Below, piece by piece: positions 4,020-22,976 of a DNA stretch of 34,163 bases (positions within the stretch are counted from its first letter, which is position 1; the number at the start of each line of letters is the position of its first letter). The position numbers and the translations under genes were made by a program. The DNA is from an uncultured beta proteobacterium. GTDB taxonomy: Bacteria > Pseudomonadota > Gammaproteobacteria > Burkholderiales > Burkholderiaceae_C. A model generated the notes under the pieces. It did no database searches. It saw nothing but the letters and a program-made list of their open reading frames with translations, and was not told the DNA's origin. Where the stretch lies: positions 1-34,163 of the forward strand of contig CAJAVE010000087.1 of NCBI GenBank assembly GCA_903945325.1, read 5' to 3'.

Positions 4020-4149
4020 ATCAGCTGTCCTTGAAAGGGGCTCATGGTGACAGATTCTCAAAACCGCAGAACTGTCACAATTAAATGACCCAGATCAAGT
4101 CGCGTTCGACATAGCAGTGCCAGCATGGGGCCAAGACTTCCCAGAAAAA

Positions 4150-5943
4150 ATGTTCACTTCGTACACCCGCTCCGACTTTCTCAAGATGGCAGGGCTGGTC
4201 ATCACCTATGTGCTATTGGCGCAACTGGTCAGGCTGCTGCTGGGCAGCAACTCGGTCATTGGTTTCATGCTGTTTGCCAGCGGCGGCGCGCTCGCGATAC
4301 TGGCGCTGGAAGGCTTTCGTTTTCTGCCGGCCCTGTTCCTGGGCGTCCTTGCGGGCTTTGCGTCCATAGGAGAATCGTCAGGCCTTGCGGTGGTCTCCGC
4401 TATGCGCCACGTTGGCACCCTGTTTGTTTGCATGTGGCTATTCAACCGCATGACCCAACTGGATGCGGATTTGAAAACTTTGCGCGACACGATTCGCATC
4501 TTCGCGCTGGCGATTGGTTTTGGCTTCATCGTCGCGCTCGCGATTCTGCCGGTGGCCGCACTGACTCCAGGCCTGGTGATCGGTGAAAACAGTTTCAACC
4601 AGCGGTGGAGCGGACATACCCTGAACGTCGTCGTCCTCATGCCTCTGATACTGGTGTGGCGCAAATTGCCGCGGGACTGGGCACAGCCCGAGCGTGGGCT
4701 GGAGGTGTTCCTCATTCTGGGTGCTACGTTTCTTGTGGGCCAGGTTGTCTTTCTGGATTGGTTCCACGACTCACTGGGTCAGATTGCACGGGGCTACTGG
4801 CTCTACCTTTTTATCACCTGGACCGCCGTGCGATTGGGTGCGCACGGTACCGTGCTCGTGGTGGCCATGGTCGCGCTGCAGGGCCTTGCCGGCGCCGCAT
4901 TGGGCGTAGGGTTCTTTTCCAATGACCTGGAAAAGACCCATCTTGCCAACTATTTTTTCTACACCATGACCTTGGCCGCTGTGGGCCTGCCGCTGGCCAC
5001 GTATTTCACGGAACGCCAACTTGCATCGAAGGCTCTGGAGCACCATCGCAACACGCTGGAATCAACCGTCACTAAACGTACTGCCGAGCTAGCCACGCGC
5101 CTGGAAGAAATGTCCGTGCTGAACAAAAAGCTGGAAGAGGTGCACATCCAGTTGCTTCAATCCGAAAAAATGGCCTCATTGGGCCAGCTCGCAGCGGGTG
5201 TGGCGCATGAAATCAACAACCCGATTGGGTTCGTTCACTCCAATCTGGGCGTGCTTGAAACCCACCTGGCCGACATTTTTGAAGTGACCGATGCACTGGA
5301 CGCAGTGATCAGCCAGGTTGCTAACCCACACGATGTGGAAGCGATCCGTCAATTGAAGTCGGAAAAGGAATTCGACTACCTGAAGACCGACATCCCTGCC
5401 CTGTTGGCGGAGTCCAAGGACGGGCTGATGCGGGTCAAGGACATTGTTCAAAATCTGAAAGATTTTTCGCGTGTGGGTGAATCCCAATGGGAGTGGGCGG
5501 ACATTCACCACTGCCTGGACTCCACCCTCAAGATTATTGCCAACGAACTCAAGTACAAGTGCACACTGGTCAAGCACTATGAATCCGGCTTGCCGGAGGT
5601 TCGATGCATTCCTGCGCAAATGAACCAGGTATTCATGAACCTGCTGGTCAATGCAGCGAACGCCATTGAGGCCGCTGGCGAAATCACCATCACCACCCAA
5701 AGCCTGACGCCCGGAACCATCCGCATATCCATTTCCGATACCGGCAGCGGAATTCCGGCGGAACATCTGGGGCGCATTTTTGACCCGTTTTTCACGACCA
5801 AGCCCATAGGCCAGGGTACCGGCCTGGGCTTATCCATCGTCTACGGCATCGTGCGCAAACACTACGGAAAAATCGAAGTTGAGAGTACAGTCGGCGAAGG
5901 CTCTACTTTCGTATTGACATTGCCGATTGATCCGCCCGCCTGA
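4150..5943 (+). CDS. MASE1-domain membrane sensor histidine kinase
   Basis: About 597 residues. The N-terminal 280 or so form eight or more hydrophobic segments matching the MASE1 integral-membrane sensor type (W/F-rich helices, [21 protein letters not shown]). A coiled coil follows (about 290-345), then a HisKA dimerisation domain with phospho-acceptor H353 in AHEINNP, and a HATPase_c domain with N box [17 protein letters not shown]1 box DTGSGIP and a G2 region GQGTGLGLS. All catalytic motifs are intact. I prefer the ATG at 4150; a GTG at 4117 in the same frame is possible, and neither has a strong ribosome site. It is the first gene of the signalling operon and lies 19 bases before a REC-HD-GYP gene, its likely partner. 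The membrane signal is unknown. Confidence 0.9.
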
Positions 5944-5962
5944 AGCAACCAGGACCCGATGC

Positions 5963-7342
5963 ATGCGAACCGACGACTCAACAACCCCTGTTCCAAATGG
6001 TTCGGCTGCGGCTGTGGACGTTCCTCCCACACTGCTGTTTGTTGACGATGAGCCGTCGATTCTGAGCTCGCTTCAAAGGCTGTTTCGTCCCAAGGGCTAC
6101 AAGATATTGACAGCCGAAAGCGGCGAAGCCGGGCTCGCCGTGCTGGACGTGCATCCGGTGGATCTGGTCATCTCGGACATGCGTATGCCCAAAATGGATG
6201 GTGCGCAGTTTCTTGAACAAGTGCGCCAAAAGACCCCCGAGACCATGCGCCTGCTGTTGACCGGCTACGCCGATGTCACCTCCACCATCAACGCCATCAA
6301 CAAAGGCGAAATTTACCGACACATCTCCAAACCCTGGGACGACAACGACATTGTGCTGATCGTCAAAAAGGCGTTGGAACACAAAGCATTGCGCGGCGAA
6401 AACCAGCGCCTGCTGGCCCTTACCCAGCGGCAAAATGACGAGCTCAAAGACCTCAATGCCGGGCTTGAAAAGCGCGTGCAGGAGCGGACCTCCGAGATTG
6501 AGCAAGTCAACAGCTTTCTCAATTTGGCCAATGACAAGTTGAAGCAAAACTTTTTGGTCTCTATCAAGGTTTTTTCGGGCCTGATCGAATTGCGCGAGGG
6601 CGCAGTGGCAGGTCACGCCCGTCGCGTAGCCGATATGGCACGCCGCATCGCCAAGCGCATGGCGCTGCCCGTACAAGGCCAACAAGACGTGTTTGTTGCG
6701 GCACTTTTGCACGACATCGGAAAAATTGGGTTCTCTGACGAATTGCTGTCCAGGCCAGTGTCCAAATTGGTGAACGAGGACCTTGCCCGCTACCGCAAGC
6801 ATGCTCTTTCAGGCGAAGCAGCGCTGATGCCATTGGTTGAATTGCAGGGCGTGGCGAAAATCATTCGGTCGCACCACGAGCGCTTTGACGGCGAGGGCTT
6901 CCCGGACGGCCTTTTGGGCACCGCGATTCCCCTGGGTGCACAGATTCTTGCCGTCGCCAATGACTACGATGGATTTCAGATCGGTACGCTGACCGAGCGT
7001 CGCTATTCAGCTGACGAAGTCAAATCCCTGCTGCAACAAGGCAGCGGTAAACGCTATGACCCCAAGGTGGTGGACGCTTTTCTGGATGTCATCGGCAAGC
7101 CCCGCGAGGAAGTCGGCCGCTACCGTGAGTTGCCAGCCTCAGAGCTGATGCCCGGCATGGTGTCCGGCAAGGACATCTTGAGCCGCGACGGCACCCTGTT
7201 GCTGGCCGCAGACTATGTGCTGGACGCCGTCATCGTGCGCCAGATTCAAACCTACGCCACGCGCGAGGGCATTCACCTGATGGTGAGTATTCGAACGGAC
7301 AAGCGGTTTAACGCTGCCCCTCAGACTGCGAGCCTGCCATGA
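5963..7342 (+). CDS. Response regulator, REC-HD-GYP (probable c-di-GMP phosphodiesterase)
   Basis: A 459-residue regulator. The REC domain (about 25-145) has the acidic pair in FVDDEPS, phospho-acceptor D72 in VISDMRMPKMDG, and SKPWDD with the conserved lysine. A coiled coil (about 150-205) leads to an HD-GYP domain. Metal motifs are present: GHARRVAD, H250-D251 in LLHDIGKIG, a downstream RKH, H304-H305 in HHERFDGEGFPDG, and VANDYD. GYP reads GFP, a tolerated variant. The C-terminal tail (after GKRYDPKVVDAF) has an ELMPGMVSGKDILSRDG segment shared with the paralogue at 14563. The ATG at 5963 has AGGA about nine bases upstream; a TTG at 5927 would overlap the kinase gene. Predicted cytoplasmic. 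Confidence 0.9.
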   Translation: MRTDDSTTPVPNGSAAAVDVPPTLLFVDDEPSILSSLQRLFRPKGYKILTAESGEAGLAVLDVHPVDLVISDMRMPKMDGAQFLEQVRQKTPETMRLLLTGYADVTSTINAINKGEIYRHISKPWDDNDIVLIVKKALEHKALRGENQRLLALTQRQNDELKDLNAGLEKRVQERTSEIEQVNSFLNLANDKLKQNFLVSIKVFSGLIELREGAVAGHARRVADMARRIAKRMALPVQGQQDVFVAALLHDIGKIGFSDELLSRPVSKLVNEDLARYRKHALSGEAALMPLVELQGVAKIIRSHHERFDGEGFPDGLLGTAIPLGAQILAVANDYDGFQIGTLTERRYSADEVKSLLQQGSGKRYDPKVVDAFLDVIGKPREEVGRYRELPASELMPGMVSGKDILSRDGTLLLAADYVLDAVIVRQIQTYATREGIHLMVSIRTDKRFNAAPQTASLP

Positions 7343-8808
7343 ACCTGAAATGGGAGTCTTACTTCGAAACCGGCATTGCGATTGTCGACCAGCAACACCA
7401 GGGCTTGGTCGCCATCATCAACGAGGCAGCCCCCATGCTGGCCCTCCCTGGTGGCCCGGACATGCAAGGCATCGGTGCCGTACTCGACAAACTATTTAAC
7501 TATGCGGCCATTCACTTTAAAACTGAAGAAGGCTTGATGGAGCTGCACCAGCTCGATGAACGATACGTTGCCCACCACTGCGCGATTCACGCACAGTTTG
7601 TTGAGCAGATCGTGGGCATGCGAACGCTTCTGGCAAGCGACGGAGCTCTCGAAGTGGGCCCGTCGCTGTTGCGATACATGACCAGTTGGCTGACGATTCA
7701 CATTCTTGACGAAGACCGACGTTTTGCCCGGCACGTCGCGCTGGTTGAGGGTGGCCAGACCCCTGAAGGTGCCTACAACACCATCGCTAAAAACAACCGC
7801 GCAGTCGACCCCGCCCGCGCCGCGCTGGAAACTGCACTGGGCGACCTGTATGTGGTGCTGGGAGAGCACAACAAAACCCTGCACCAGGCCAATGCAAAAC
7901 TGCAACAGGCACGCGACCAGCTGGAAATGCGGGTGGAGGAACGCACCCAGGAACTGACCGCCGCGCTGGAGCAGATGAAACTGACACAAGGTCAGCTGTT
8001 GCAGTCCGAAAAAATGGCCGCCGTCGGTCAATTGGCCGCAGGCGTGGCACACGAGATCAACAACCCGATTGGCTTTGTCAACTCCAACCTGGGCTCGCTC
8101 AAAAATTACGTTACCCAGCTACTCAACGTCATATCGGCGTATGAGGAGATGGGAGTCGAATCACGCCCCATTGCGGCCCGCCAGCAGCACCTGAATCAGG
8201 CGCGCGCAGATGCCGACCTGGACTATCTCAAGCACGACGTGGTGAACCTGCTCAACGAGTCGGTAGAGGGTCTGGACCGTGTCAAGAAAATTGTTCAGGA
8301 CTTGAAAGACTTCTCCCATGTGGACCAGGCTGAATGGCAGGATGCCGACCTCAACGCCGGGCTGGAATCCACCCTGAACGTGATCGCCCACGAGCTCAAG
8401 TACCGGGCCAATGTGGTCAAGCATTTTGCCCCATTGCCGTTGCTGCGCTGCCTGCCTTCCCAGCTCAACCAGGTTTTCATGAACCTGCTGCTCAATGCGG
8501 CGCAGGCGCTGGATGGACCGGGTGAAATCACGGTCACAACCGGCTTTTCGGACAAAGCGGTGTGGATTGAAATCCGTGACGACGGCAAAGGCATACCCCT
8601 AGAGATACAAAAGCGGATTTTTGAGCCCTTCTTCACCACCAAGCCGGTTGGCAAAGGCACCGGCCTGGGCTTGTCCATTGCGTTTGACATCGTGCAAAAG
8701 AAGCACGGCGGCCGCATGGAAGTCGAAAGTGCCATCGGTAAGGGCAGCACATTTCGGGTGATCCTGCCGCGCCATTCCATAGAACCGGTAGCACCCACTA
8801 GCCACTGA
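7339..8808 (+). CDS. Hemerythrin-domain sensor histidine kinase
   Basis: 489 residues, with no membrane segment. Residues 1-135 form a bacterial hemerythrin domain with all seven di-iron ligands in the expected spacing: H20 (IVDQQH), H59 and E63 (HFKTEE), H80 and H84 (HCAIH), H121 and D126 (WLTIHILDED). A coiled coil at about 165-225 leads to HisKA with H238 in AHEINNP. HATPase_c has [23 protein letters not shown] and GKGTGLGLS. Hemerythrins bind O2 reversibly at a di-iron centre, so the kinase probably reads oxygen, or redox or NO. The ATG overlaps the preceding stop as ATGA, which implies translational coupling to the REC-HD-GYP gene. Two bases separate it from the GGDEF-EAL-REC gene downstream. 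Confidence 0.93.
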   Translation: MNLKWESYFETGIAIVDQQHQGLVAIINEAAPMLALPGGPDMQGIGAVLDKLFNYAAIHFKTEEGLMELHQLDERYVAHHCAIHAQFVEQIVGMRTLLASDGALEVGPSLLRYMTSWLTIHILDEDRRFARHVALVEGGQTPEGAYNTIAKNNRAVDPARAALETALGDLYVVLGEHNKTLHQANAKLQQARDQLEMRVEERTQELTAALEQMKLTQGQLLQSEKMAAVGQLAAGVAHEINNPIGFVNSNLGSLKNYVTQLLNVISAYEEMGVESRPIAARQQHLNQARADADLDYLKHDVVNLLNESVEGLDRVKKIVQDLKDFSHVDQAEWQDADLNAGLESTLNVIAHELKYRANVVKHFAPLPLLRCLPSQLNQVFMNLLLNAAQALDGPGEITVTTGFSDKAVWIEIRDDGKGIPLEIQKRIFEPFFTTKPVGKGTGLGLSIAFDIVQKKHGGRMEVESAIGKGSTFRVILPRHSIEPVAPTSH

Positions 8809-8810
8809 AT

Positions 8811-10979
8811 ATGTCAAGTCCTACAACTCCCGCTCAGGTAACCGACTCCGCCGGAATTGAGCAGTTCGTGGATGAACGCCAACTGCTGCATGTGTTGATG
8901 CAGCGGTCCGCCATCGGTTTGATCGTGGTAGACACCCTGGGTGTGGTCGAATTTGTCAACACGTTGGCGCAAACCCTGTGCGCCTGCTCGCCAACCCAGT
9001 TGGTCGGCAAGAACTGTGTAACGCTGTTTGCCCAGGATCTGGCCTCCGTAGCCAATACCGCCTTGCAAAATGGCCTTGCCAATGGCTGCGGTTGGGGTAT
9101 GGAGACCATGATCCAGCGCATGGATGGAACCCAGTTTTGGTGCGACTTTCAGCTGGTTCCGGTCGAGGACGCGCGTACCGGCTCCACACGCTGGTGTGTC
9201 TTCCTGCACGACATCAGCCACCTCAAGCACGCTGCTGACAAGATTCAGCACATCTCCAGCTTTGATCAACTGACCTTGTTGCCCAACCGGGCGCAATTTT
9301 TGCAAAACCTGCATCAACTCTTGAGCAGCGCCAGTGCCAACGGTGATTTTGTGTTGATGGTGTGGATCGACGTGGACCACCTGCGCACCATCAATGACGC
9401 CATGGGCCATGCCGTGGCCGACCAGGTGCTTCTCACCGTGGCTGACCGCATGCGGGAAGCCTCCCGCAGGCAGGACCTGCTGGCACGTCTGGGTGGTGAT
9501 GAATTCGCGCTGGTGTTGTCGGGCGGCACTGACGCCCAAGACCTGAGGGAGGCTGCCGAGCGCCTGATCCGCAACCTCGAAGTGGATCTGGTCACACAAG
9601 CCTGCACGGTGAAATTCAGCCTGACGGCTGGCACTGCCATTTTTCCTACCGATGCCAGGTACGTCGATGATCTGATGTCCTGCGCTGAAATGGCGCTGCG
9701 GGAGGCCAAGAAAGCGGGCGATGGCGGCATAGGCCACTTTGTCACCGGGCTTGGAAATCTCGGGGCCTCGCACGCGCAAGCCGTTGCCGAACTGCGCAAT
9801 GCCATCGCAGCGGGCGAGCTGCGCCTGCACTACCAGCCGCAGCTGAGCCTGCACTCGGGCCAGGTTATTGGTCTTGAAGCCCTGGTGCGCTGGCAGCACC
9901 CCACGCGCGGCTTGCTGGCGCCCTTTCATTTCATTGCATTGGCTGAAGAGTGTGGCCTGATCATCACCCTGGGCGAATGGGTCATGCGCACGGCCGTGCA
10001 GCAAATCAGAGACTGGCGGACCGATGGCCTGACACCGGTGCGGGTGGCAGTCAACTTGTCAGCGCCGCATTTCCGTCAAAAAGGCCTACCCGATGCGATT
10101 GAGAAATTGCTGTTCGACCATGGCGTCCCTGCCGCGCTGCTCGAACTGGAGCTGACCGAAAGCGTCATGATGCGTGATGCGGAAGCGGCCATCCATATCG
10201 TGGACCGGTTGAAGATGCTGGGCCTTCGCATTTCTCTGGACGACTTTGGCACGGGCTACTCGTCTTTGGCCTACCTGTCGCGTTTTGCCATTGATGTCAT
10301 CAAGATTGACCAGTCTTTTGTAGCCAACATCACCACCAACCCGGTGAACGCTTCCATTGCCACGGCCACCATTGCCATGGCCCACAAACTGGGCAAGACC
10401 GTCATCGCCGAAGGGGTAGAGACCCAGGGACAAATGACTTACCTGCGCCGCCACGAGTGCGATGAAATGCAGGGCTACCTGTTCTCCCGGCCCGTGGATG
10501 CGCCAACCATCAGCGACATGCTGCGCAGCGGTGCCGGAATCAACTTGAGCCTGGACCAGGGCGAGGCGCAAATGACGCTGCTGCTGGTGGATGACGAGCC
10601 CAATATTCTGAACGCCCTCAAACGATTGTTGCGCCGTGAGGGCTACCGCATCCTGTGCGCGGAAAGCGCAGCCCAGGGGCTGGACCTGCTGGCAACGCAC
10701 CGCGTGCACGTGGTCATTTCCGACCAACGCATGCCCGTCATGACGGGTACCGAGTTTTTGAGCCGCGTCAAAGACCTCTACCCCGACACGGTGCGTCTGG
10801 TTCTGTCAGGTTATTCTGAACTCGAATCCCTGACGGACGCCATCAACAAAGGCGCCATCTACCGCTACATCTCCAAGCCGTGGGATGACGCCATGTTCAA
10901 ACAGGATGTCACGCAGGCCTTCCGCTACTACCGCGAGCGCAATCCTGCCAGCACACTAAACAACCATGAAGCAGACTGA
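8811..10979 (+). CDS. PAS-GGDEF-EAL-REC bifunctional c-di-GMP protein
   Basis: 722 residues in four domains. A PAS domain (about 25-150, QRSAIGLIVVDTLGVVEFVN) is followed by GGDEF with an intact active site at 228-232, preceded at five residues by RRQD, a proper RxxD inhibitory site. EAL has the signature at 356-358 (LEALVRWQHP) and the other catalytic motifs NLSAPHF, LELELTES, LDDFGTGYSSL, IKIDQSF and IAEGVET. At the C-terminus lies a REC domain (about 585-710) with VDDEPN, D638 in VISDQRMPVMTG and SKPWDD. Both enzyme domains look competent, so the net direction of c-di-GMP change cannot be read. The C-terminal REC is an unusual place and belongs to the same REC subfamily as the regulators at 5963 and 14563. 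It ends overlapping the next kinase by 14 bases. Confidence 0.92.
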   Translation: MSSPTTPAQVTDSAGIEQFVDERQLLHVLMQRSAIGLIVVDTLGVVEFVNTLAQTLCACSPTQLVGKNCVTLFAQDLASVANTALQNGLANGCGWGMETMIQRMDGTQFWCDFQLVPVEDARTGSTRWCVFLHDISHLKHAADKIQHISSFDQLTLLPNRAQFLQNLHQLLSSASANGDFVLMVWIDVDHLRTINDAMGHAVADQVLLTVADRMREASRRQDLLARLGGDEFALVLSGGTDAQDLREAAERLIRNLEVDLVTQACTVKFSLTAGTAIFPTDARYVDDLMSCAEMALREAKKAGDGGIGHFVTGLGNLGASHAQAVAELRNAIAAGELRLHYQPQLSLHSGQVIGLEALVRWQHPTRGLLAPFHFIALAEECGLIITLGEWVMRTAVQQIRDWRTDGLTPVRVAVNLSAPHFRQKGLPDAIEKLLFDHGVPAALLELELTESVMMRDAEAAIHIVDRLKMLGLRISLDDFGTGYSSLAYLSRFAIDVIKIDQSFVANITTNPVNASIATATIAMAHKLGKTVIAEGVETQGQMTYLRRHECDEMQGYLFSRPVDAPTISDMLRSGAGINLSLDQGEAQMTLLLVDDEPNILNALKRLLRREGYRILCAESAAQGLDLLATHRVHVVISDQRMPVMTGTEFLSRVKDLYPDTVRLVLSGYSELESLTDAINKGAIYRYISKPWDDAMFKQDVTQAFRYYRERNPASTLNNHEAD

Positions 10980-13716
10980 CCTGCCCACCTGGAAAACTCG
11001 TGCGCAGTGGCATCTGCTGTGGGCGGTGCTGCTGTTCCTCGGGACTTTGTTGGGCGGCATTCTTTACTACGACTACTCGCGCATCGAAAAAGATGCAGAG
11101 GCGTCTTTAAGCTTCCGCTCGGCTGCTGGTGCGGCAGATCTGGAGCGGCGTCTGGAGTCACTCAACACGGCCTTGAACGGCATTCGCGCGAGCTCACCCT
11201 TTTTTAAGACGGACAAGCGCGGGTTAGAAATTGCGAACCGGCAATTAAAGGCACTCAGCAACTCTCTGGAAGGCGTACGCACCTTGGCTCTGTTTGATGC
11301 CACTGGCACGATGATCGCCTCCAACCGCCCGGAAATCGTGGGGCAGAACTTTGCTGACCGCGCCTATTTCAAATTGCCAAAGGCAGAAAGGAACCCCGGC
11401 AGGCTCTATGTCAGCGCCCCAATTAAAACCATTTTGGGGGTTTACTCGGTCATATTGACCAAAAGCATAGTGGGCGCAGATGGTGAATTTTCTGGCATTG
11501 TGACTGCCACGCTGGACCCGGAAGACTTCAAAAGCACCCTGGAAGGGGCCCGCGAAGTACCCGACGCGTTCGCCGGCATTGTGCACGGCAACGGTCAGGT
11601 TTTCTTGTTTGCGCCTGCATCTGTGGCACTGCCCACCAGCGAGTTTGCGCTCATGCAAACCTTTTATGCGGATCACAAAAAAAGCGCGCAACCGACCAGC
11701 GTGAAAACTGGCTTGAGCCCCTACACGAATGCCATTCGGATGGTGGCCATGACCACAGTGCAAACCACGTCCCTCGCCATGGACCAGCCGCTCATCGTTG
11801 TCGTTAGCCGCGACGTTGCACAGATCTTCGACCAATGGCACAAGCAAGCAATTTTGGCGACAGGCATCCTTCTTGGTTTGACGTTGTTGAGCACGCTGAG
11901 TCTGCGCTTTTATCAACGGCGTCTGCGCAATCTGGAACAAACGGTGCAAATCCAGGCGCTGGGGCGTCAACAAGCCGAGCAAAAAGTGCGCGACAGCGCG
12001 CAACTGATGCAAAGCTTTCTGGACCACTTGCCCGGCATGGCCTACGTCAAAGACAGCGACTGCCGCGTGCTAATGGCCAATCGGGGCTTTCAAATGATTG
12101 GCCTTGACCCCGCCTTGATGATCGGAAAAACCAATCTGGAGATGCTGCCCGAGCCATTCGGCGAAAAGGTCACAGCGGACGACCAACGGGTTCTGGCAAA
12201 CGGCAAGATTGAATTGATGCAGGAAGAATTGGCGGGCCGCAGTTTTGAGACGTCAAAATTTGTAATTGATGACGAGAGCGGTCAACGCCTGTTGGGCGGT
12301 ATCACGCTGGACGTAACGGCACGCCAACGGCACGTCAGGTTGACCCAGGCACTGCTGGAAGTTAACGAAATAGGCTCACTATGGAGCGAGAAAGATTTTT
12401 TAACCCGTGGCCTTGAATTGGCGGAGCGTTTGACCAATAGCGGCATTGGTTTCCTGCACTTCGTCAACGACGACCAGGAAACGCTGGAGTTAATCACCTG
12501 GACGTCCAACGCACTGAAGGGCTGCACCGCAGTGCACGATGCCCACTACCCCATCAGCCAAGCGGGCATCTGGGCCGATTGCTTCCGCCAGAAGCGCCCT
12601 GTGGTCTTTAACGACTATGCAGCCTGCACACACAAACAAGGTTTGCCGGTTGGACATGCACCGTTGCAGCGATTGATTTCGGTGCCTGTGATTGAAAGCG
12701 GTGCCGTGCGATTGATGTTGGGTGTTGGCAACAAGCCAATCGACTACGACGATTTTGATTTGGAAGCCGTTCAACTCATTGGCAACGACCTTTGGCGCAT
12801 TGCCCGGCGCAACCGGGCAGAGCGGCAACTGCAGCAGCAGCTGGTTGAGCTGGGCGCGCTCAACACCAAACTGGCAGAAACCCAGGGGCAGCTCCTGCAA
12901 TCCGAAAAGCTGTCGGCCATCGGACAACTGGCGGCCGGCATTGCACACGAAATCAACAACCCGGTGGGGTTTGTCTATTCCAATCTGACAACCCTGACTG
13001 AATACGTGGACGACCTGCTGGACATTGACAGCGCATACAGCGAAGTGGAGGACCATTTGCAAAGTGTTGCCCCGCAACTGCTGGAGCGTGTGCGCGCATT
13101 GAAGTCCGCCTGCGACCACCCCTTTGTGGTGACCGATTTGCGCCATCTGCTGCGTGAATCGGGTGAAGGCCTGGAGCGCGTCAAAACCATTGTGCAAGAC
13201 CTGAAAGGTTTTTCACGCACGGGCGACACCAGCTGGGAGTGGTCTGATTTGCAAAGAGGCCTGGACAGCACACTCAACATCGTGCGCAACGAGATCAAAT
13301 ACAAGGCTGACATTGTTCGTGAATTGGCCACCTTGCCGCCAGTGAGATGCATACCCGCGCAGATCAACCAGGTCTTCATGAACCTGCTGGTGAATGCGGC
13401 GCAGGCGATTGAAGAACGCGGCACCATCACGCTGCGCTGCGGTGTCGATGGAGACTCCGTCTGGATCTCCGTGCAAGATGACGGATGCGGCATAGAGCCT
13501 GACAAACTCTCCCGGATCTTTGATCCGTTTTACACCAGCAAGCCCGTGGGCAAAGGCACCGGGCTGGGCCTGACCTTGGTGTGGGGCATCGTCCAGCGCC
13601 ACCAGGGCTCGATCAATGTGCAGTCCACCGTTGGCCATGGCGCTTGCTTCGCGCTTCGCCTGCCGATCAATGGACCGATCAATGTGCCGAATTTGGAAAG
13701 TCCTGGCCCGCCATGA
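10966..13716 (+). CDS. Cache-PAS-GAF sensor histidine kinase
   Basis: 916 residues. Transmembrane helix 1 lies at about 17-37 and helix 2 at about 297-317 (ILATGILLGLTLLSTLSLRF). The roughly 260-residue periplasmic loop between them has the double-Cache pattern (ALFDATGTMIASN, FADRAYFKL, RLYVSAPIKT, LTKSIVGADGEFSG). A PAS domain (about 345-455, MQSFLDHLPGMAYVKDSDCR) and a GAF domain (about 470-615, NSGIGFLHFVNDD to MLGVGNK) follow. Then come a short coiled coil, HisKA with H661 in AHEINNP, and HATPase_c with [23 protein letters not shown] and GKGTGLGLT. Cache domains usually bind small organic ligands outside the inner membrane; the ligand here is unknown. The ATG lies inside the end of the preceding gene, and the stop overlaps the HDOD start. 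Confidence 0.92.
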   Translation: MKQTDLPTWKTRAQWHLLWAVLLFLGTLLGGILYYDYSRIEKDAEASLSFRSAAGAADLERRLESLNTALNGIRASSPFFKTDKRGLEIANRQLKALSNSLEGVRTLALFDATGTMIASNRPEIVGQNFADRAYFKLPKAERNPGRLYVSAPIKTILGVYSVILTKSIVGADGEFSGIVTATLDPEDFKSTLEGAREVPDAFAGIVHGNGQVFLFAPASVALPTSEFALMQTFYADHKKSAQPTSVKTGLSPYTNAIRMVAMTTVQTTSLAMDQPLIVVVSRDVAQIFDQWHKQAILATGILLGLTLLSTLSLRFYQRRLRNLEQTVQIQALGRQQAEQKVRDSAQLMQSFLDHLPGMAYVKDSDCRVLMANRGFQMIGLDPALMIGKTNLEMLPEPFGEKVTADDQRVLANGKIELMQEELAGRSFETSKFVIDDESGQRLLGGITLDVTARQRHVRLTQALLEVNEIGSLWSEKDFLTRGLELAERLTNSGIGFLHFVNDDQETLELITWTSNALKGCTAVHDAHYPISQAGIWADCFRQKRPVVFNDYAACTHKQGLPVGHAPLQRLISVPVIESGAVRLMLGVGNKPIDYDDFDLEAVQLIGNDLWRIARRNRAERQLQQQLVELGALNTKLAETQGQLLQSEKLSAIGQLAAGIAHEINNPVGFVYSNLTTLTEYVDDLLDIDSAYSEVEDHLQSVAPQLLERVRALKSACDHPFVVTDLRHLLRESGEGLERVKTIVQDLKGFSRTGDTSWEWSDLQRGLDSTLNIVRNEIKYKADIVRELATLPPVRCIPAQINQVFMNLLVNAAQAIEERGTITLRCGVDGDSVWISVQDDGCGIEPDKLSRIFDPFYTSKPVGKGTGLGLTLVWGIVQRHQGSINVQSTVGHGACFALRLPINGPINVPNLESPGPP

Positions 13717-14555
13717 CCACCGATCTGGCTCTCAGGCTGGCCGCCGCGGTAGAAAGCATGCCGGCCTTTCCCAAAAGCGTTCAAAGCATCCTGGCACTGA
13801 CACGCAATATGGACTGCTCGCCCAAAGACCTGGTACAGGTCATTGGCAAAGACCCGGTGATTACCATCAAGGTCTTGCGGGTTGTCAACTCGGCCTACTA
13901 CAACCTGTCCAGCCAGATCACCTCCATGGACCATGCGGTGGTGTTTCTGGGGTTCAACACCATCAAGAACCTGGCGCTTAGCATTGCCGCCATCAGCATG
14001 CTGCCCGCAAACCACCTGGCGGGTTTTGACGCCCAGCAGTACCTGCTGCACTCCCTGGTGACCGCCGGCATTGCCAAGCAACTGGCGCTGCGCGTGCAGG
14101 ACGCAGACCCCAATGACTGCTTCATTGCCGGACTTTTGCATGACTTTGGCAAGGTGGTCGTGGCGCAGTGCATGCCGGCCGAGTACCAGCGCGCCGTGGA
14201 GATCAGCCTGTGGAACGAAACATCCCTGCACGCCGCCCTGCGCCAGGTGGTTGGGGTGGACCACTTTGCCATCGGTGCCATGCTGGTAGAGCGCTGGCGT
14301 TTTGCGCCCCAGCTGATCGAGACCATTGGCTGCCTGAACACGGCCAACCTCAAAGATACCGACATGATTGCCTGCGTCTTTGCGGCCAACCAGATTTGCA
14401 AGCACATCGGTTGCGATTTTGGCGGAAGCCCGTCACTGGATGCCTTACCCGTGACAGTGAGCCATCGTCTGTGCGGCTCGCTGGGTGAACTTCGCCAGTC
14501 TTTGGGCGACCTTACCCCGATGCTGGAAGAGGCCCGGGTTTTCGCCAAACTGTGA
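13713..14555 (+). CDS. HDOD-domain protein
   Basis: 280 residues, essentially a single HDOD domain (about 5-215). Marks are MPAFPKSVQSILAL, DPVITIKVLRVVNSAYYN, AVVFLGFNTIKNLALS and GLLHDFGKVV (H143, D144). HDOD domains are relatives of HD phosphohydrolases that mostly act as signalling or scaffold modules without proven catalysis. They are often encoded with two-component and c-di-GMP genes. The frame is open further upstream to 13581, but that stretch lies inside the kinase gene. The ATG at 13713 overlaps the kinase stop as ATGA, so the two are translationally coupled. Its place between the Cache kinase and the REC-HD' gene suggests it works in the same pathway; the function itself is not known. 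Confidence 0.9.
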   Translation: MTTDLALRLAAAVESMPAFPKSVQSILALTRNMDCSPKDLVQVIGKDPVITIKVLRVVNSAYYNLSSQITSMDHAVVFLGFNTIKNLALSIAAISMLPANHLAGFDAQQYLLHSLVTAGIAKQLALRVQDADPNDCFIAGLLHDFGKVVVAQCMPAEYQRAVEISLWNETSLHAALRQVVGVDHFAIGAMLVERWRFAPQLIETIGCLNTANLKDTDMIACVFAANQICKHIGCDFGGSPSLDALPVTVSHRLCGSLGELRQSLGDLTPMLEEARVFAKL

Positions 14556-14562
14556 GCCACCC

Positions 14563-15918: not shown

Positions 15919-15927
15919 AGGTTGACC

Positions 15928-17226
15928 ATGCCCACCACCCCCGACACCGACCCTGCACTGAATTTCGTGGCTCCGGATCAGTTGCGTATCGGTTTGTACA
16001 TCTTTCTGGACATCCCGTGGTTTCGCCACAACTTCACACTCAACAGTTTCAAGATCTCGTCAGAACAACAAATTCGCGAGTTGCAGACACTGGGCGAGTC
16101 GCGCTTTCGGTTCGACCCGGCACGCAGCACGGCGCCGGCAAGCGCTTCACCCGAGCCGGCTCACACCATCCTCAAGCCACCAGTTGCGCCAGCCCCACCG
16201 GATGCACGAATGATTGAAAAGCTAGCCCGCATTCAGCGGCTGACCGAGCAGCGAAAAAATATTGCAAAAGTTGAAAAATCCTTTGCCAAGGCCTCTGGCG
16301 TGATGCGCAGCCTCAACAAAAACCTGGTGTCGAACCCCAAAGAGTCTTTGGCCGAAATGGACCTGATGGTGGATGAAATGGTGGACGTCTTTCTGGCGCG
16401 CCCTGAAGTGACGCTGCAGGTACTGGGCGAGAAGTCTGGTGGTGAAGAAATCTACTACCACGGACTCAATGTGTCCATCCTCTGTCTGATGCTGGCCAAG
16501 GAACTGGGGCTTGCGCCGGACCAGGCGCGGCTGCTGGGCACCGGTGCCTTGTTACATGACATTGGCCTGAGTGAAATACCCGACAAAGTGCTTCGCAAGC
16601 GCCCAGAACACTTCACCAAGCCCGAGCGCGAGTTGCGGGCGCTGCACGTGGAATTCGGCGTCAATCTTGGCAAGAAAATTGCACTCCCGCCCGACGTGCT
16701 GGTCATCATCGCCCAACACCACGAACTGGCCGACGGCAGTGGCTACCCCTTGGGTACCACACTTGACAAAATATCGCCGTTGGCGCGCATCGTCTCGCTG
16801 GTCAACTTTTATGAAAACCTGTGCAACCCCATGGACCCTGCCAGCGCCATGACCCCGCACGAGGCACTGTCGTACATGTACGCGCAGCGCCGCAGCAAGT
16901 TTGCCCCCGATGTGCTGCAAGTGCTGGTGCACTCATTGGGCGTCTATCCGCCCGGCTCCATTGTCAAGCTGTCCAACGATGCCATTGCCATGGTGATGTC
17001 CGTCAATCCGAAAAAGGCGCTGCGCCCCTGGGTTCTTGTTTATGACCCCAGTGTGCCCAAAGACGAAGCCATCATGCTGGATCTGGAGATGGAGCCATCC
17101 CTGAACATTCGCCAGGCCATACGCCCGGACACCTTGCACCCGGCGGTGCAGGCCTACCTGTGTCCACGCAAGCGTGTGACCTACTTTTTTGACGGAAAGA
17201 CGACCAGCGAAACGCACGGGGCTTGA
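15928..17226 (+). CDS. DUF3391/HD-GYP protein (probable c-di-GMP phosphodiesterase)
   Basis: 432 residues. The N-terminal about 70 residues match the DUF3391 module (APDQLRIGLYIFLDIPWFRHNF) that often precedes stand-alone HD-GYP domains. A Pro/Ala-rich linker (about 70-95) and a helical stretch follow. The HD-GYP domain has intact motifs: YYHGLNVSILCLML, H210-D211 in LLHDIGLSEIP, H264-H265-E266 and DGSGYP with the classic GYP. The C-terminal about 80 residues have no domain I recognise. The ATG at 15928 has AAGG six bases upstream and is preferred over the TTG at 15922. This is the most canonical HD-GYP of the three in the cluster. It has no REC, so it is not directly phosphorylated. Confidence 0.9.
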   Translation: MPTTPDTDPALNFVAPDQLRIGLYIFLDIPWFRHNFTLNSFKISSEQQIRELQTLGESRFRFDPARSTAPASASPEPAHTILKPPVAPAPPDARMIEKLARIQRLTEQRKNIAKVEKSFAKASGVMRSLNKNLVSNPKESLAEMDLMVDEMVDVFLARPEVTLQVLGEKSGGEEIYYHGLNVSILCLMLAKELGLAPDQARLLGTGALLHDIGLSEIPDKVLRKRPEHFTKPERELRALHVEFGVNLGKKIALPPDVLVIIAQHHELADGSGYPLGTTLDKISPLARIVSLVNFYENLCNPMDPASAMTPHEALSYMYAQRRSKFAPDVLQVLVHSLGVYPPGSIVKLSNDAIAMVMSVNPKKALRPWVLVYDPSVPKDEAIMLDLEMEPSLNIRQAIRPDTLHPAVQAYLCPRKRVTYFFDGKTTSETHGA

Positions 17227-17229
17227 CTC

Positions 17230-18894
17230 ATGTACGAATCTATTCTTCTGGATCAAACGCGCGAAATATTGCTGTTGGTCGACCCCATCACGCTGGTCAT
17301 TGGTGAGGTCAGCAAACCCACCCTGCAGCGTTTGGGCTACACCCACGATGCACTGCTTGGGCGCTCTATCACCGACATCGAGTGCGCCCTGTCAGACCTG
17401 TTCTACTGGGACGAGGTGCGCCAAGGCGGCAGCCCCAATGTGACCGACACCGAGTGCTCTTACCTGTGCAGCAACGGTGACATTCTGCTGGCCTCAAAAA
17501 CAGTTTTGCAGGTTGAGAGCGGCAGCACGAGCTGGCTGGTGATCCGGGCGGAGCCGCTGGAGCAGCGCCAGCAGGCAGAAAGCGAATTGGCCAGCATCAG
17601 CTCGCGCCTGCAGGCCACGCTGGAGGCCACGGCGGAGGGCATTTTGCTGCTGGACCGCGCGGGCAAGATCCTCAACATGAACCAGTGCTTCTCCCGGATG
17701 TGGGGTTTTCCGGATGCACTGCTGGCACGCCGCATAGACGAAGAGGCCTTTGCCTTTATGGCCAGTTTCTTTACCGATCAGGAGTCCTACCAACGCAATT
17801 TGGCGGCCATTCACCTGGACTCCGACCAGGAGTCGTTTGACACGCTGGAGCTGGCGGATGGCCGCATTTTTGAGCGCCGATCGCGCCCCGCGCGCCACGC
17901 AGAGCAAATCATCGGGCGTGTCTTTTCGTTCAGCGATGCTACCGAGCGCAAAGCCATCGAGCAACAGCTGCTAAACCAAAATGCCAGGCTGGAGGAGGTG
18001 GTACAGCAACGCACTGCTGCGCTGAGCCAACAACTGGCCGCATTGACCGAATCCAACCGCAAGCTGGAGGAGGCCCAGTTTCAACTGCTGCAGTCCGAAA
18101 AACTGGCATCCATCGGCCAGCTGGCCGCCGGAGTGGCGCACGAAATCAACAATCCGATTGGCTTCATCAACTCCAACCTGGGCACGCTGGGCGGCTACGT
18201 GGAGTCCCTGCTCGCAATCGACGCTGCCTACACAAGCGCGCAGCGCGCTCTGGAACCCAGTGTGCAGTTGGCCTTTGAGTCGGTGAATGCACTGAAGACG
18301 GAATCGGACCACGCCTTCATGGTCGAAGACCTGCGCCAGCTCATCAAAGAGTCGCGCGATGGCCTGGAGCGGGTCAAAACCATTGTGCGTGACCTGAAAG
18401 ATTTTGCCCGCGTGGGTTCGGCCGAATGGGCTTGGGCTGACATTCACCAGGGGCTGGAAAGCACTCTGAACATCGTCTGGAATGAACTCAAATACAAGGC
18501 CACGGTGGAGCGCGAGTACGGCACGTTGCCCCAGGTGCACTGCATTCCGTCGCAGCTGAACCAGGTCTTCATGAACTTGCTGGTCAACGCGGCACACGCG
18601 ATTGAGGGCCAGGGCGTCATTCGGGTTCGCACCGGGTGGAACGACCAACAGGTCTGGGTGGAGGTGATTGACACTGGCGTCGGCATACCTCCGGAAAACA
18701 TCAACCGCATCTTTGACCCGTTCTTCACCACCAAGGCGCTGGGCAAGGGCACCGGGCTCGGGCTGTCGCTCGCCTGGGGCATTGTGCAGCGTCACCGGGG
18801 AACCATTGAAGTGGAGTCACAACCCGGCAAGGGCTCGACCTTCAGGGTCGTGCTGCCCATCAATGGAACCGCGGAAACCCCGAGCCCGAAATAA
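17230..18894 (+). CDS. PAS-domain cytoplasmic sensor histidine kinase
   Basis: 554 residues with no signal peptide or membrane helix. Two PAS-like domains lie in the first about 235 residues: a divergent one (about 8-110, EILLLVDPITLVIGEVSK) and a typical one (about 125-235, LEATAEGILLLDRAGKIL). A coiled coil at about 240-285 precedes HisKA with H304 in AHEINNP. HATPase_c has [24 protein letters not shown] and GKGTGLGLS. It begins three bases after the HD-GYP stop. It is the fourth kinase of the cluster with the same catalytic core. The receiver it serves is not obvious from position; the REC-GGDEF protein at 22035 or the shared REC proteins upstream are candidates. Confidence 0.91.
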   Translation: MYESILLDQTREILLLVDPITLVIGEVSKPTLQRLGYTHDALLGRSITDIECALSDLFYWDEVRQGGSPNVTDTECSYLCSNGDILLASKTVLQVESGSTSWLVIRAEPLEQRQQAESELASISSRLQATLEATAEGILLLDRAGKILNMNQCFSRMWGFPDALLARRIDEEAFAFMASFFTDQESYQRNLAAIHLDSDQESFDTLELADGRIFERRSRPARHAEQIIGRVFSFSDATERKAIEQQLLNQNARLEEVVQQRTAALSQQLAALTESNRKLEEAQFQLLQSEKLASIGQLAAGVAHEINNPIGFINSNLGTLGGYVESLLAIDAAYTSAQRALEPSVQLAFESVNALKTESDHAFMVEDLRQLIKESRDGLERVKTIVRDLKDFARVGSAEWAWADIHQGLESTLNIVWNELKYKATVEREYGTLPQVHCIPSQLNQVFMNLLVNAAHAIEGQGVIRVRTGWNDQQVWVEVIDTGVGIPPENINRIFDPFFTTKALGKGTGLGLSLAWGIVQRHRGTIEVESQPGKGSTFRVVLPINGTAETPSPK

Positions 18895-18984
18895 CTGGGG
18901 ACCCGCTCATTTCATCCGTCGTCATCTGACTTACTCCGAAAAATGAAGCCAGCTTGAAACACCTCCTTTATAGAAGAATCCCAT

Positions 18985-19908
18985 ATGAAAAAATCAACGC
19001 AAGCAGGTCCCGGCTTTCTTTGGAGTCCGGGTGTACGGTTGATGGGCAACGTCAGCTTTCCTACCAAAGCGCTGATAGTCAGTCTGGTCTTCCTGCTGCC
19101 AATTGCGCTATTGGGTTACTTTTTTGTCAGCGCCCAGAACGACCAGATTGCCTTCAGTGCGAAGGAGCGACTCGGTGTCGCGGCGCTACAGCGCGTTGAA
19201 CCCATTGCGACCGGTGTGCTCAAAATTCGCAACGCTACGCGGGCGATTCTGGGAGGCTTTGATGGTGTCAGCAAGTTCGAAGCAGCGAAAACCGAGACGG
19301 ATGCAGCCTTAAATGGCTTCGACAAGTACTTGTCTGAGTCGGGTGACCCCTTGGCGCTCAAATCCGAGTTTGGGAAACTCAGGGACGCTTGGGCAACCGC
19401 AGTCAAGGCGCGCAATGGTGTTGACGAATCAGGACGCACGGTCTTTGGACCATTGGCGGCGTCATTGGACAAGCTGGTGGGATCCATTGGTGACGAATCC
19501 AATCTCGCGCTGGATCCTGACATCGACAGTTACTACATGTTCAGCACCTTGTACGGCCTGTCTTCAATGAGTGAAAACCTGGGGCAGCTGTGGGGCTGGG
19601 GCACCTATGCGCTGGCAATGAACCAAACCACCAAGAAAGAACTCGATCAGAAGGATCTGATGCGCTATGCCGTCTGGTCTGCGGGAGTCAAATCTTCATT
19701 GACCACTTCCAAAGATTACCTGGACAAAGTATTTGCCTATAACCCGTCGCTGAAGGCAAAGATCGACCTCACCGTCATGGACGATGTCCGAACTTTTCAT
19801 GACATGGCCAAAGACGTGCAGGTACTGGCAAAAGGGTCAGACTCTGCGGCACAGTTCTATGGCAAGGGTGAGAAAGCTGTCATGAAGCTGCAATCGTTCT
19901 ACGACTAA
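18985..19908 (+). CDS. Chemoreceptor N-terminal part: TM1 and ligand-binding domain (split gene)
   Basis: 307 residues ending in TAA. One transmembrane helix (about 28-48, ALIVSLVFLLPIALLGYFF) is followed by about 255 residues of mostly helical extracytoplasmic sensor domain, with no second membrane helix. The frame continues without any shift into the next reading frame at 19912, which starts just before the missing second helix and carries all signalling modules. The two together form a complete methyl-accepting chemotaxis protein of about 990 residues, broken by a single TAA between FYD and GLPALDD. A C-to-T change in a CAA codon would explain it. On its own this product could be a membrane-anchored ligand binder with no output. 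Whether it is a true mutation or a sequencing error cannot be seen here. Confidence 0.8.
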   Translation: MKKSTQAGPGFLWSPGVRLMGNVSFPTKALIVSLVFLLPIALLGYFFVSAQNDQIAFSAKERLGVAALQRVEPIATGVLKIRNATRAILGGFDGVSKFEAAKTETDAALNGFDKYLSESGDPLALKSEFGKLRDAWATAVKARNGVDESGRTVFGPLAASLDKLVGSIGDESNLALDPDIDSYYMFSTLYGLSSMSENLGQLWGWGTYALAMNQTTKKELDQKDLMRYAVWSAGVKSSLTTSKDYLDKVFAYNPSLKAKIDLTVMDDVRTFHDMAKDVQVLAKGSDSAAQFYGKGEKAVMKLQSFYD

Positions 19909-19911
19909 GGC

Positions 19912-21957
19912 TTGCCCGCACTGGATGACATCCTGGTAGCACGTATCAATGGTCTAAAGCAGAAGTTAATCGTTTCCGCGGTGCTGGTGGCCGCTTTGCT
20001 GCTGATCGCAGGCTATTTGTTTTATAGTTTTTTCCTGATCACCAATGGCGGAATGATGTCTATTAAAAGACATTTGCAGGAGCTGGCCGATGGCGATCTG
20101 AGCAACCGCCCGGGTCCACCCTCCGGCAAAGACGAGACTGCGCAGGTTTTGACCTCGCTCATCGCTGTGCATGGTGTGCTGGCAGACTTTCAGGCCGCAC
20201 AGACCTCCATGGCGGCGGCCCATGCCGCAGGCGCTATTGACGCAGTGATGCCCGTGTCAACGCTGCCCGGAACCTATGGCGTGATGGCCCAGTCCATCAA
20301 CGATCTGGTCAAGGCGCAAATGGATGTGCAGACACGTCTTCTGGACCTGATTGAGCACTATGCGCAAGGCAAATTTGAGGAAGAAATGGAAGAACTGCCG
20401 GGCCTGATGCGCCGCATCACCAACACGGCGCGCGAGACACGCGCCAAATTGGCCGCCGCGGCGGAGGCGGCCATCTTCAACTTACGGGTGCTCAACGCCC
20501 TGAACAAGTGCAGCACCAATGTGATGATTGCTGACGCCAACAACGTCATCCTTTACATGAATGAGACCGTATCCACCATGATGCAGGGCAACGAGGCTGA
20601 GCTGCGCAAGTCGCTCCCCCACTTCGACGCACGAAAGCTCATTGGCCAAAACATCGATGTTTTCCACAAAAACCCTGCCCACCAGCGCAATATGCTGGGC
20701 GCCTTGCGGACGACCTATCGAACCCAGATTCAAGTGGGACGACTGTACTTTGGTCTGATCGCCAACCCCATCATCGATTCAAGCGGGGTGCGCGTTGGCA
20801 CAGTCGTCGAGTGGAGCGATCGCACCGCCGAGGTGGGCGTTGAGCACGAGGTTGCCGCGGTGGTGGAAGCCGCCGCCCGAGGCGATTTCAGCCAGCGCCT
20901 GAACCCGGTCGGCAAGACCGGCTTCTTCATTGGACTGACCACCGGAATGAACCAGCTGATCGAAACCAGCGAGCAGGGTCTGACCGATGTAGCCGATGTG
21001 CTGGCTGCCTTTGCCGAAGGCGACCTGACCCGGCGTATGGAGCGGGACTACCAGGGCTTGTTTGGCAAAGTCAAAGACAGTGCCAATTCCACGGCAGAGT
21101 CGCTCACGCGTGTGCTTGATGAGGTGCGCTCGGCAGCGGACGCTCTCACCGGTGCGGCCAACCAGGTCAGCGCTACCGCACAGAGCCTGAGCCAGGCCGC
21201 CAGCGAGCAGGCCGCCAGTGTCGAAGAGACCAGTTCCCAGATCGACGTCATGTCGGCATCCATCAGCCAAAACAGCGACAACGCCCGTGTTACCGACGGC
21301 ATGGCCACTAAAGCCAGCAAGGAAGCCACTGACGGTGGCAGTGCCGTCAGCCAGACCGTAGTGGCCATGAAGCAGATAGCCGCCAAGATTGGCATCGTCG
21401 ACGACATCGCCTACCAGACCAACCTGCTGGCCCTGAACGCCGCCATCGAAGCCGCCAGAGCAGGAGAACACGGAAAAGGCTTTGCCGTCGTGGCCGCCGA
21501 AGTGCGCAAACTCGCCGAACGCAGCCAGGAGGCGGCCCGGGAAATTGGTGAACTGGCGGGCTCCAGCGTATCCACTGCCGAGCGTGCGGGCAAACTGCTC
21601 GATGAAATCGTGCCCAGCATCCAAAAGACATCGGAGCTGGTGCAAGAGATTGCAGCGGCCAGTGCCGAGCAAAGTGAATCGGTGGTGCAAATTGGTGGCG
21701 CCATGGGGCAACTGAGCAAGGCCACGCAACAAAACGCCTCCGCCTCCGAAGAGCTGGCGGCCACCAGCGAAGAGCTTTCGGGCCAGGCCGAGCAGTTGCA
21801 ACAGTCCGTTGCATTCTTCAACACCGGAGACGCCGCACCCAAGGTGGCCAGCCGGCAGCTTGGGCGCCAGCCAGCATCGCTGGGCGAGCGCCGTGCCGCA
21901 GCCGTTCCACGGCTTGCGGGATCAGGCTCCAGCGGGGGCAACTTCAAGCCCTACTGA
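19912..21957 (+). CDS. Chemoreceptor C-terminal part: TM2, HAMP, PAS, MCP signalling domain (split gene)
   Basis: Up to 681 residues from a TTG. One transmembrane helix (about 18-42) is followed by HAMP-like modules (about 45-180), a PAS domain (about 185-305, [16 protein letters not shown]), a further HAMP-type pair (about 315-415, [12 protein letters not shown]) and an MCP signalling domain. The hairpin tip is well conserved ([20 protein letters not shown], then [20 protein letters not shown]), so the protein would couple to CheA/CheW if made. No CheR-docking pentapeptide is present at the C-terminus. Translation initiation is doubtful: TTG follows the TAA by three bases and AAGG is too close. 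No che genes are in the window. It most likely needs readthrough, reinitiation or correction of the stop to be expressed. Confidence 0.85.
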
Positions 21958-22034
21958 GTCAACCGGTCTTGAAAAAGGGGATTCAATCAGCGCCGGCAAC
22001 AGGCGAGTACCCCACACATCCCAGGATGTAAATA

Positions 22035-22976
22035 ATGAAAATAATGTTGGTAGAGGACGCGCGCTCCGTTGTTCTGGTCATGACGTCGCGGCTCAAGAGC
22101 TACGGATACGACGTGGTGCATGCAGAGAACGGACAGGTCGCGGTGAACCGGTTTGCCGAAACGTCGCCGGACCTGGTGCTGATGGACATCGAAATGCCGG
22201 TGATGAATGGCTTTGAGGCGGCGAATCGGATTCGTGCGCTAGAGGCGCAGCAGCGCTGGGCCTGGACGCCCATCATCTTTTTGACATCGTCTGACACGGT
22301 GGAAAACCTGGTGACTGCCATCGAAGCCGGGGGCGACGACTTCATGTCAAAGTTTGTGCCCGAACCTGTGCTCCACGCCAAGATGAAGGCCATGGGACGG
22401 ATCGCGAACCTTCGACAGAGTCTCTCCATCGCCAACCAGAAGTTGCAAAGCCTTGCGGACCACGATGGTCTGACCGGGCTGGTCAACCGTCGCAGCATGG
22501 ACACGCAGGTTGATCTGATCTGGTTTGAGTCAGCGCCCAGGGGCCTGCCGTTTGCGTTGCTCATGATCGACATCGACAACTTCAAGAGATACAACGACCA
22601 CTATGGACATCAGATGGGGGACGATTGCTTGCGCAAGGTCGCCAAGGCCATAGAGGAAGCGACAACGCAGGGCAATAAGCTGGGCACAACCAGCGGGGCC
22701 TTTGCTGCCAGATATGGTGGCGAAGAGTTTGCGGTGATCATTCCCGGCGCGGACCCGCAGGCGGTTGAAGCGCTTTCAACGTCCATTCTGGAGTCGGTTC
22801 GCCAGCTTGCCATTGCGCACGAACGCAATGACGCATGGGGAGTTGCCACTGTATCAATTGGCGGCGCGCGGGTCGAGAAAGTGAATGGCGAGTTGGCGGA
22901 GGTCTTTCGGACGGCAGACCAGCGTCTGTATGCAGCCAAGAGCCAGGGTCGCAATGGTGTTGTGAGTGCCGGCTAA
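22035..22976 (+). CDS. Response regulator diguanylate cyclase (REC-GGDEF)
   Basis: 313 residues. The REC domain (about 1-125) has E7-D8, the phospho-acceptor aspartate in LVLMDIEMPVMNG, FLTSSD and the MSKF lysine. After a short helix comes a GGDEF domain (about 145-313) with LMIDIDNFKRYNDHYGH, the active site YGGEEFAVIIPGAD and the closing ADQRLYAAKSQGRN. The GGEEF form is active in the family. The inhibitory RxxD motif five residues before GGEEF is absent (that position reads TSGA), so product feedback through the primary I-site is not expected. AGGA lies about eight bases before the ATG. It follows the chemoreceptor by 77 bases and is the last gene of the signalling block. It is the only dedicated cyclase there. 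Confidence 0.93.
   Translation: MKIMLVEDARSVVLVMTSRLKSYGYDVVHAENGQVAVNRFAETSPDLVLMDIEMPVMNGFEAANRIRALEAQQRWAWTPIIFLTSSDTVENLVTAIEAGGDDFMSKFVPEPVLHAKMKAMGRIANLRQSLSIANQKLQSLADHDGLTGLVNRRSMDTQVDLIWFESAPRGLPFALLMIDIDNFKRYNDHYGHQMGDDCLRKVAKAIEEATTQGNKLGTTSGAFAARYGGEEFAVIIPGADPQAVEALSTSILESVRQLAIAHERNDAWGVATVSIGGARVEKVNGELAEVFRTADQRLYAAKSQGRNGVVSAG

Follow-up and report, generated by a model that had tools for sequence, protein, structure and literature searches.

Do several histidine kinases that are encoded side by side with several response regulators (RRs) of cyclic di-GMP (c-di-GMP) turnover feed one common output, or does each of them keep a partner of its own? This question is raised by a stretch of 34,163 nucleotides (the window) from an uncultured beta proteobacterium, contig CAJAVE010000087.1 of assembly GCA_903945325.1, which is one contig of a 4.69-Mb, 394-contig genome that is ~90% complete. 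A first-pass annotation, made from the DNA letters alone, had described eleven signalling genes at 4150-22976 as a single same-strand island, in which several stimuli converge on one c-di-GMP pool. The listed genes do lie on one strand (+), and nine of them (g1-g9, 4150-18894) form a tightly packed core; the chemoreceptor and the REC-GGDEF gene that complete the proposed island look separate, being set off by larger gaps, lacking a counterpart in the closest related cluster and, in the case of REC-GGDEF, carrying a REC from a different family. For the core, the reading that we find most likely, and towards which we lean, is a shared kinase-receiver pool controlling c-di-GMP breakdown, with insulated kinase-receiver pairs as the main rival. 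Convergence is thus retained as a prediction for g1-g9, and not for the REC-GGDEF protein or the chemoreceptor; it is suggested by the concentration of one kinase and one receiver subfamily here, by identical specificity positions, by co-occurrence across genomes and by kinase and receiver numbers that are often not one to one.

Organisation of the core

With the chosen starts, the successive junctions of g1-g9 measure +19, -4, +2, -14, -4, +7, +9 and +3 bases, in agreement with the range from a 14-base overlap to 19 bases given by the first-pass annotation. The core is operon-like in this respect, and its genes are probably cotranscribed. The frame of g1 opens with GTG at 4117, and the start adopted earlier, 4150, is its first ATG. 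Apart from the kinases and receivers described below, Pfam confirmed the one HDOD protein (g6, 13713-14555, + strand, 1e-54) and the one stand-alone HD-GYP protein (g8, 15928-17226, + strand), the latter a DUF3391-HD-GYP protein without REC.

The closest relative cluster, L039 of the uncultured beta proteobacterium KT_bin-2367, preserves the order of g2, g4, g5, g6, g7, g8 and g9, with identities of 71-85% in the aligned parts. In the 20.8 kb of L039 examined, g1 and g3, the would-be partners of g2 and g4, were not found. For the HDOD gene g6, the nearest named contig belongs to an uncultured beta proteobacterium (84%), followed mostly by contigs of Rhodoferax, Curvibacter and other Comamonadaceae/Burkholderiales; the host is probably Rhodoferax-like, the genus being taken from these contigs.

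Histidine kinases

As the first-pass annotation had it, and as Pfam bears out, the four kinases lack receiver domains and carry different inputs, namely MASE1 (g1, 4150-5943; MASE1 and HATPase_c above cut-off, HisKA below it), hemerythrin (g3, 7339-8808; also by motif positions), dCache-PAS-GAF (g5, 10966-13716) and PAS (g9, 17230-18894, with two PAS domains and an L039 orthologue 85% identical), all on the + strand. When the hemerythrin kinase g3 was used as query at E <= 1e-60, four matches were found in the genome, all of them in the window (15 of 84 first-look candidates scored), and HisKA occurs at 55 places in this genome; judged by this similarity, the clustering of the kinases is not a matter of chance.

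The same kinase type is joined to many sensors. Among 98 N-termini of the subfamily (window and L039 included; 25 of 28 families shown), 51 matched PAS_4, 16 hemerythrin, 15 GAF_2 and 5 a receiver domain, and a few matched Cache, CHASE5, Tll0287 or MASE1. Sensor inputs are, on this comparison, interchangeable across the subfamily.

The positions 7, 11 and 12 residues after the phosphorylated His were Gly, Ser and Asn in 89, 89 and 93 of the 93 tabulated subfamily kinases, respectively; the printed sequences of the five of 98 that fell outside the search pattern carry the same residues, except for one with Ser at +7. This triplet is identical in the four kinases of the island and was found in none of the 22 other readable kinases of the genome (30 control loci taken of the 55 HisKA places, 8 of them unreadable; in two, the motif was remote from where it was expected). 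Counted from the His, in our own mapping, the three positions correspond to T250, L254 and A255 of EnvZ, changes in which are described as sufficient to swap partner choice with RstB (PMC2991266; this and the other papers cited are drawn on in excerpt).

The kinase tree was a quick LG+G4 tree, run without bootstrap and flagged by the program for long branches. In it, g5 and g9 each pair with their own L039 orthologue (support 100) inside an 11-row clade (97), g1 stands beside this clade with weak support (83) and nearer to the kinases of L074 and L077 (90), and g3 is placed apart, unresolved. A recent local duplication of the four kinases as a set is rejected on these placements.

The hemerythrin domain of g3 has H20, H59, E63, H80, H84, H121 and D126 (five His, one Glu, one Asp), the spacing of which we take to be the hemerythrin di-iron pattern, with the ligands chosen by eye. 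In g3 the HisKA match, to a model of 66 positions, is stretched over ~100 residues, which points to an insert separating the two helices of the dimerization and histidine phosphotransfer domain. HisKA is matched only in part by g1, g5 and g9.

Receivers of the core

Three core proteins carry a REC domain: g2 (REC-HD-GYP, 5963-7342), g4 (8811-10979) and g7 (REC-HD-GYP, 14563-15918), all on the + strand. The first-pass annotation had counted four REC proteins, g12 included, and Pfam supports the outputs it gave; g4, described as GGDEF-EAL-REC, has in addition an N-terminal PAS, and its GGDEF, upstream RxxD, EAL and DDFGTG motifs are all present by position. With the REC of g7 as query, the best RECs of the genome were those of g7, g2 and g4 at 100, 73 and 55% identity, and the next was at 40% (96 of 96 candidates scored). 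The pattern DDEPxILxxLxRLxR in REC helix 1 is common to the three and was not seen in the RECs of this genome that served as controls (30 loci, 25 of which could be read, g7 being one of the unread; a few motifs lay well away from where they were expected); it varies in relatives, being least strict in single-domain RECs (9 of 121 RECs missed the pattern). The kinase and REC patterns would together form a shared partner code, for which this evidence is circumstantial.

In L039, the g4 orthologue (5459-7195) has cleanly lost GGDEF and retains PAS, EAL and REC, which suggests that EAL activity is what is conserved of g4.

Intact and degenerate HD-GYP domains

Both REC-HD-GYP proteins have the domains attributed to them earlier, but the metal centre is preserved in one only. 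The HD dyad and HH pair are kept in g2 (motifs HD and HHE, with GFP replacing GYP; motif table and alignment to PmGH, 4mcw), as are the equivalents of PmGH H189 and H250. By contrast, g7 lacks the metal ligands, with HE for HD and QLE for HHE (QL in place of HH), and has GHP as its third motif (motif table, alignments to solved HD-GYPs and tree). In PmGH, mutating any of the eight metal ligands abolished activity, except for E185 and D305, and changes in GYP did little (PMC4159591). Since these ligands are lost in g7, it is probably inactive as a phosphodiesterase; by analogy with HnoD, the degenerate HD-GYP protein considered below, it may be a regulator. Conversely, g2 is probably active, missing only the two dispensable ligands.

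Degeneracy is common in this group. Of 53 REC-HD-GYP proteins, 27 were intact at HD and HHE, 22 had lost both and 4 had lost one (26 of 53 degenerate, g7 included), and 24 of the 26 fell in two all-degenerate clades, of 11 rows (Shimodaira-Hasegawa-like approximate likelihood ratio test, SH-aLRT, 99) and 13 rows (96), in a tree that included the motif columns and in which the label 'deg' is wrong for one row, L101 (motif begins MLHD). The ligand loss therefore looks old and maintained. Intact and degenerate REC-HD-GYP proteins occurred together only in the window and L039 among 62 loci. A recent twin origin of g2 and g7 is rejected, since the tree puts them in separate sets, supported at 97 and 99.

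Recurrence across genomes

We surveyed 200 genomes of the family that are at least 90% complete for the kinase subfamily (E <= 1e-50) and the receiver subfamily (E <= 1e-26, a threshold that probably undercounts lower-scoring single-domain RECs). Kinases of the subfamily were present in 48 genomes and receivers in 50, with 47 genomes holding both, 1 the kinase only, 3 the receiver only and 149 neither (Fisher p 6e-41, ignoring relatedness of the genomes). A subfamily receiver lay within 6 kb of 65 of the 86 kinases, and a kinase within 6 kb of 83 of the 91 receivers. Among the 47 genomes having both, 18 had more receivers and 9 more kinases, including 16 with one kinase and at least two receivers and 5 with at least two kinases and one receiver; such unequal numbers argue against fixed kinase-receiver pairs. 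The window holds the most subfamily kinases in 20 kb (four) among the 48 genomes; outside this family, but within the order, the counts are five for L083 and four for L084.

This near-perfect co-occurrence bears on the possibility that the four kinases belong to genome-wide networks, so that they would be clustered through common ancestry and expression, while phosphate or phosphatase partners encoded elsewhere would count for more. The abundance of signalling domains (103 REC and 55 HisKA places in the genome) and the subfamily kinases whose contig shows no subfamily receiver within 6 kb (21 of 86) speak for such networks, which we nevertheless consider quite improbable, given both the co-occurrence and the position of the genome's closest RECs, all inside the cluster.

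Gene combinations were compared in 60 loci, the rates in which are biased because the loci were chosen around kinase or receiver matches, some from one genome. A subfamily kinase was accompanied by REC-HD-GYP in 47 loci and by HDOD in 27, and kinase, REC-HD-GYP, EAL-REC and HDOD stood together in 14; in seven of the seven loci holding a DUF3391-HD-GYP gene of the g8 type, it was followed by a same-strand subfamily kinase. Between loci the parts seem to have been reshuffled, with blocks joined in the window that are kept apart in some other genomes, for instance in L076 and L077 of G023, and g1-g9 would be a local enlargement of a module that recurs in Burkholderiales. The recurrence of the same parts, together with the overlapping genes, leaves very little room for a chance accumulation of functionally unconnected signalling genes, although such genes are numerous in the genome and relatives of g6 do occur outside such clusters. 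Among 30 related HDOD loci, the cluster was seen only in L039 and in none of the 29 others (L040-L068), several of which are on short contigs.

These 29 HDOD relatives are 62-70% identical to g6, and in L041 the opposite strand gives a weaker match to kinase and REC. A further genome, G208 (L126, L127, L128), carries six subfamily kinases and two receivers, with no subfamily receiver within 6 kb of five of the kinases, and is a candidate for kinases acting in trans; L127, one of the three G208 neighbourhoods examined, has another REC nearby.

Shared pool or insulated pairs

Read from the observed domains, gene packing, residue patterns and co-occurrence, cross-phosphorylation, its net direction, the role of g7 and the sensed signals would be as follows. 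Four kinases of the same subfamily, each with its own sensor, would exchange phosphate with one common pool formed by g2, g4 and g7; the inputs would be a membrane signal through MASE1 (g1), redox or oxygen through the di-iron hemerythrin (g3), an extracytoplasmic signal through dCache (g5) and a PAS signal (g9). Of these receivers, g2 is a likely active HD-GYP phosphodiesterase and g4, through GGDEF-EAL, a likely phosphodiesterase or bifunctional enzyme. Phosphorylation of the receivers would set net c-di-GMP breakdown, and the net output is probably degradation by EAL and HD-GYP. The dead g7 would most likely work through contact with the g4 or g2 protein, in the way that HnoD acts on HnoB, with g6 (HDOD) and g8 (DUF3391-HD-GYP) as accessory parts.

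The same nine genes could instead comprise three insulated cognate pairs placed end to end (g1-g2, g3-g4 and g5-g7) and a lone kinase, g9, with signals that meet only in the c-di-GMP pool. The gene order, in which kinase and receiver alternate, fits such pairs too, and the REC helix 1 residues S, S, S and F of g2 and g7 are N, N, A and L in g4; moreover, kinase and receiver numbers are equal in 20 of the 47 genomes, 11 of which have one of each. On the other hand, the three key positions are identical in all four kinases, L039 has the RECs of g2 and g4 without g1 and g3 nearby, and numbers are unequal in 27 of the 47 genomes, and we regard insulated pairs as rather unlikely.

The shared pool, which we prefer, has to be weighed against several findings besides the alternating order, the equal numbers and the 21 kinases without a neighbouring receiver. 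Much of helix 1 around the kinase His is conserved in the subfamily, and the three positions are therefore weak evidence alone; 9 of the 22 control kinases have another triplet, N, G and M, in common. The absence of g1 and g3 from L039 applies to 20.8 kb of its genome. At the equivalents of PmGH E185 and D305, aligned by eye, g2 has Ala and Asn, so that its activity is not certain. Finally, 2 promoter-like sites were counted on both strands of 3900-23200, below the 5.8 of shuffled sequences, and the operon status of g1-g9 thus rests on spacing; terminator-like sites in the same interval numbered 27 versus 20.5 (standard deviation 4.4).

Comparison with known systems

By analogy, the cluster is best seen as a variant of the known branched c-di-GMP networks Hno, Roc and Nos, and may work like a branched Hno or Roc network. 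In Shewanella oneidensis, two kinases, HnoK and HnoS, act on several RRs (HnoB, HnoC and HnoD), which include an EAL phosphodiesterase and a degenerate HD-GYP protein inhibiting it (PMC6335343; PMC8846402). The core has a similar receiver set, judged by motif only, with phosphodiesterase domains (EAL in g4, HD-GYP motifs in g2) and a degenerate REC-HD-GYP (g7). It differs from Hno in having no DNA-binding RR, in joining four kinases in one operon-like block, and in its extra intact REC-HD-GYP, HDOD and DUF3391-HD-GYP proteins. In Pseudomonas aeruginosa, the paralogous kinases RocS1, RocS2 and RocS4 share RRs (RocA1-3 and RocR), including a REC-EAL phosphodiesterase (PMC12051241); however, the Roc kinases are described as unorthodox or hybrid and are spread over more than one locus, whereas those of the window are simple and adjacent, and the core has no transcription factor.

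The NosP-NosK-NosR operon of Burkholderia pseudomallei likewise combines a kinase with a REC-HD-GYP protein that has lost its catalytic motif (HG-GTP) and is phosphorylated by the kinase (PMC12570481), but is described with one kinase and a FIST-domain nitric oxide sensor. In the 27 frames of the window that were scanned, neither H-NOX (HNOB) nor FIST was matched at E <= 0.01, and the cluster therefore does not belong to the Hno or Nos systems; HnoD and NosR would still be the closest precedents for its dead HD-GYP.

Two partial likenesses concern single parts. In Burkholderia pseudomallei the EAL phosphodiesterase gene cdpA adjoins the HDOD gene I2285, and insertion mutants of both were less motile, but the excerpts mention no kinase or REC-HD-GYP block (PMC9040570). 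Hemerythrin serves as a redox or oxygen input to c-di-GMP turnover in Bhr-DGC of Vibrio and Bhr-HD-GYP of Ferrovum, where it is fused to the enzyme, in contrast to the kinase in g3; the characterised hemerythrin sensor classes in the accessible text of this 2022 review include no kinase (PMC9388753), and a hemerythrin kinase would be an input type unlisted in the available parts of two reviews (PMC9388753, PMC8846402). EmbRS of Rubrivivax was rejected as the same module, as it is described with a LuxR-family regulator (PMC3684757). The gene block was not found described in the open-access literature, as covered by titles and abstract starts among the matches listed, with subscription papers mostly outside.

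If the shared pool holds, the locus would stand beside Roc as an unusually compact exception to the divergence by which duplicated two-component systems are expected to avoid cross-talk, with the partners together in one 15-kb block, and would provide many related loci for asking why catalytically dead HD-GYP receivers persist. A broader proposal, which we put forward tentatively and at somewhat less than even chances, is that of a Burkholderiales 'plug-in' module, in which one kinase subfamily with swapped sensors and a single unchanging kinase-receiver code would feed active and permanently dead HD-GYPs from a common phosphate pool open to sensors in any number, its duplicates having escaped divergence into insulated pathways.

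Boundary of the core

The L039 cluster stops after the PAS kinase orthologous to g9 and is followed by opposite-strand genes; the L039 genes beyond this orthologue gave no match to the domain set used. In the window, gaps of 90 bases (g9 to the chemoreceptor) and 77 bases (before g12) follow. With the REC of g7 as query, the REC of g12 (REC-GGDEF, 22035-22976, + strand) ranked 24 of 32 matches in the genome, and by this measure it is not of the family of the g2, g4 and g7 RECs. Because the L039 cluster ends at g9 and the REC of g12 belongs to another family, we ended the core at g9, with the chemoreceptor and g12 adjoining it from outside.

The chemoreceptor reported earlier is present, as one reading frame split by an in-frame TAA (19906-19908) into two open frames on the + strand: g10 (18985-19908), the N-terminal part with a weak NIT match, and g11 (19912-21957), the C-terminal part with HAMP and the MCP signal domain. 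The two closest homologues of g10 (53 and 50% identity) are single frames of 1003 and 984 amino acids, and weaker ones (31-34%) lie in frames of 552-1014 amino acids; the TAA may reflect a pseudogene or an assembly error. On the minus strand, at ~22976-23080, directly after the stop of a DUF748 gene, a short stretch resembles by eye the C-terminal end of a GGDEF domain.

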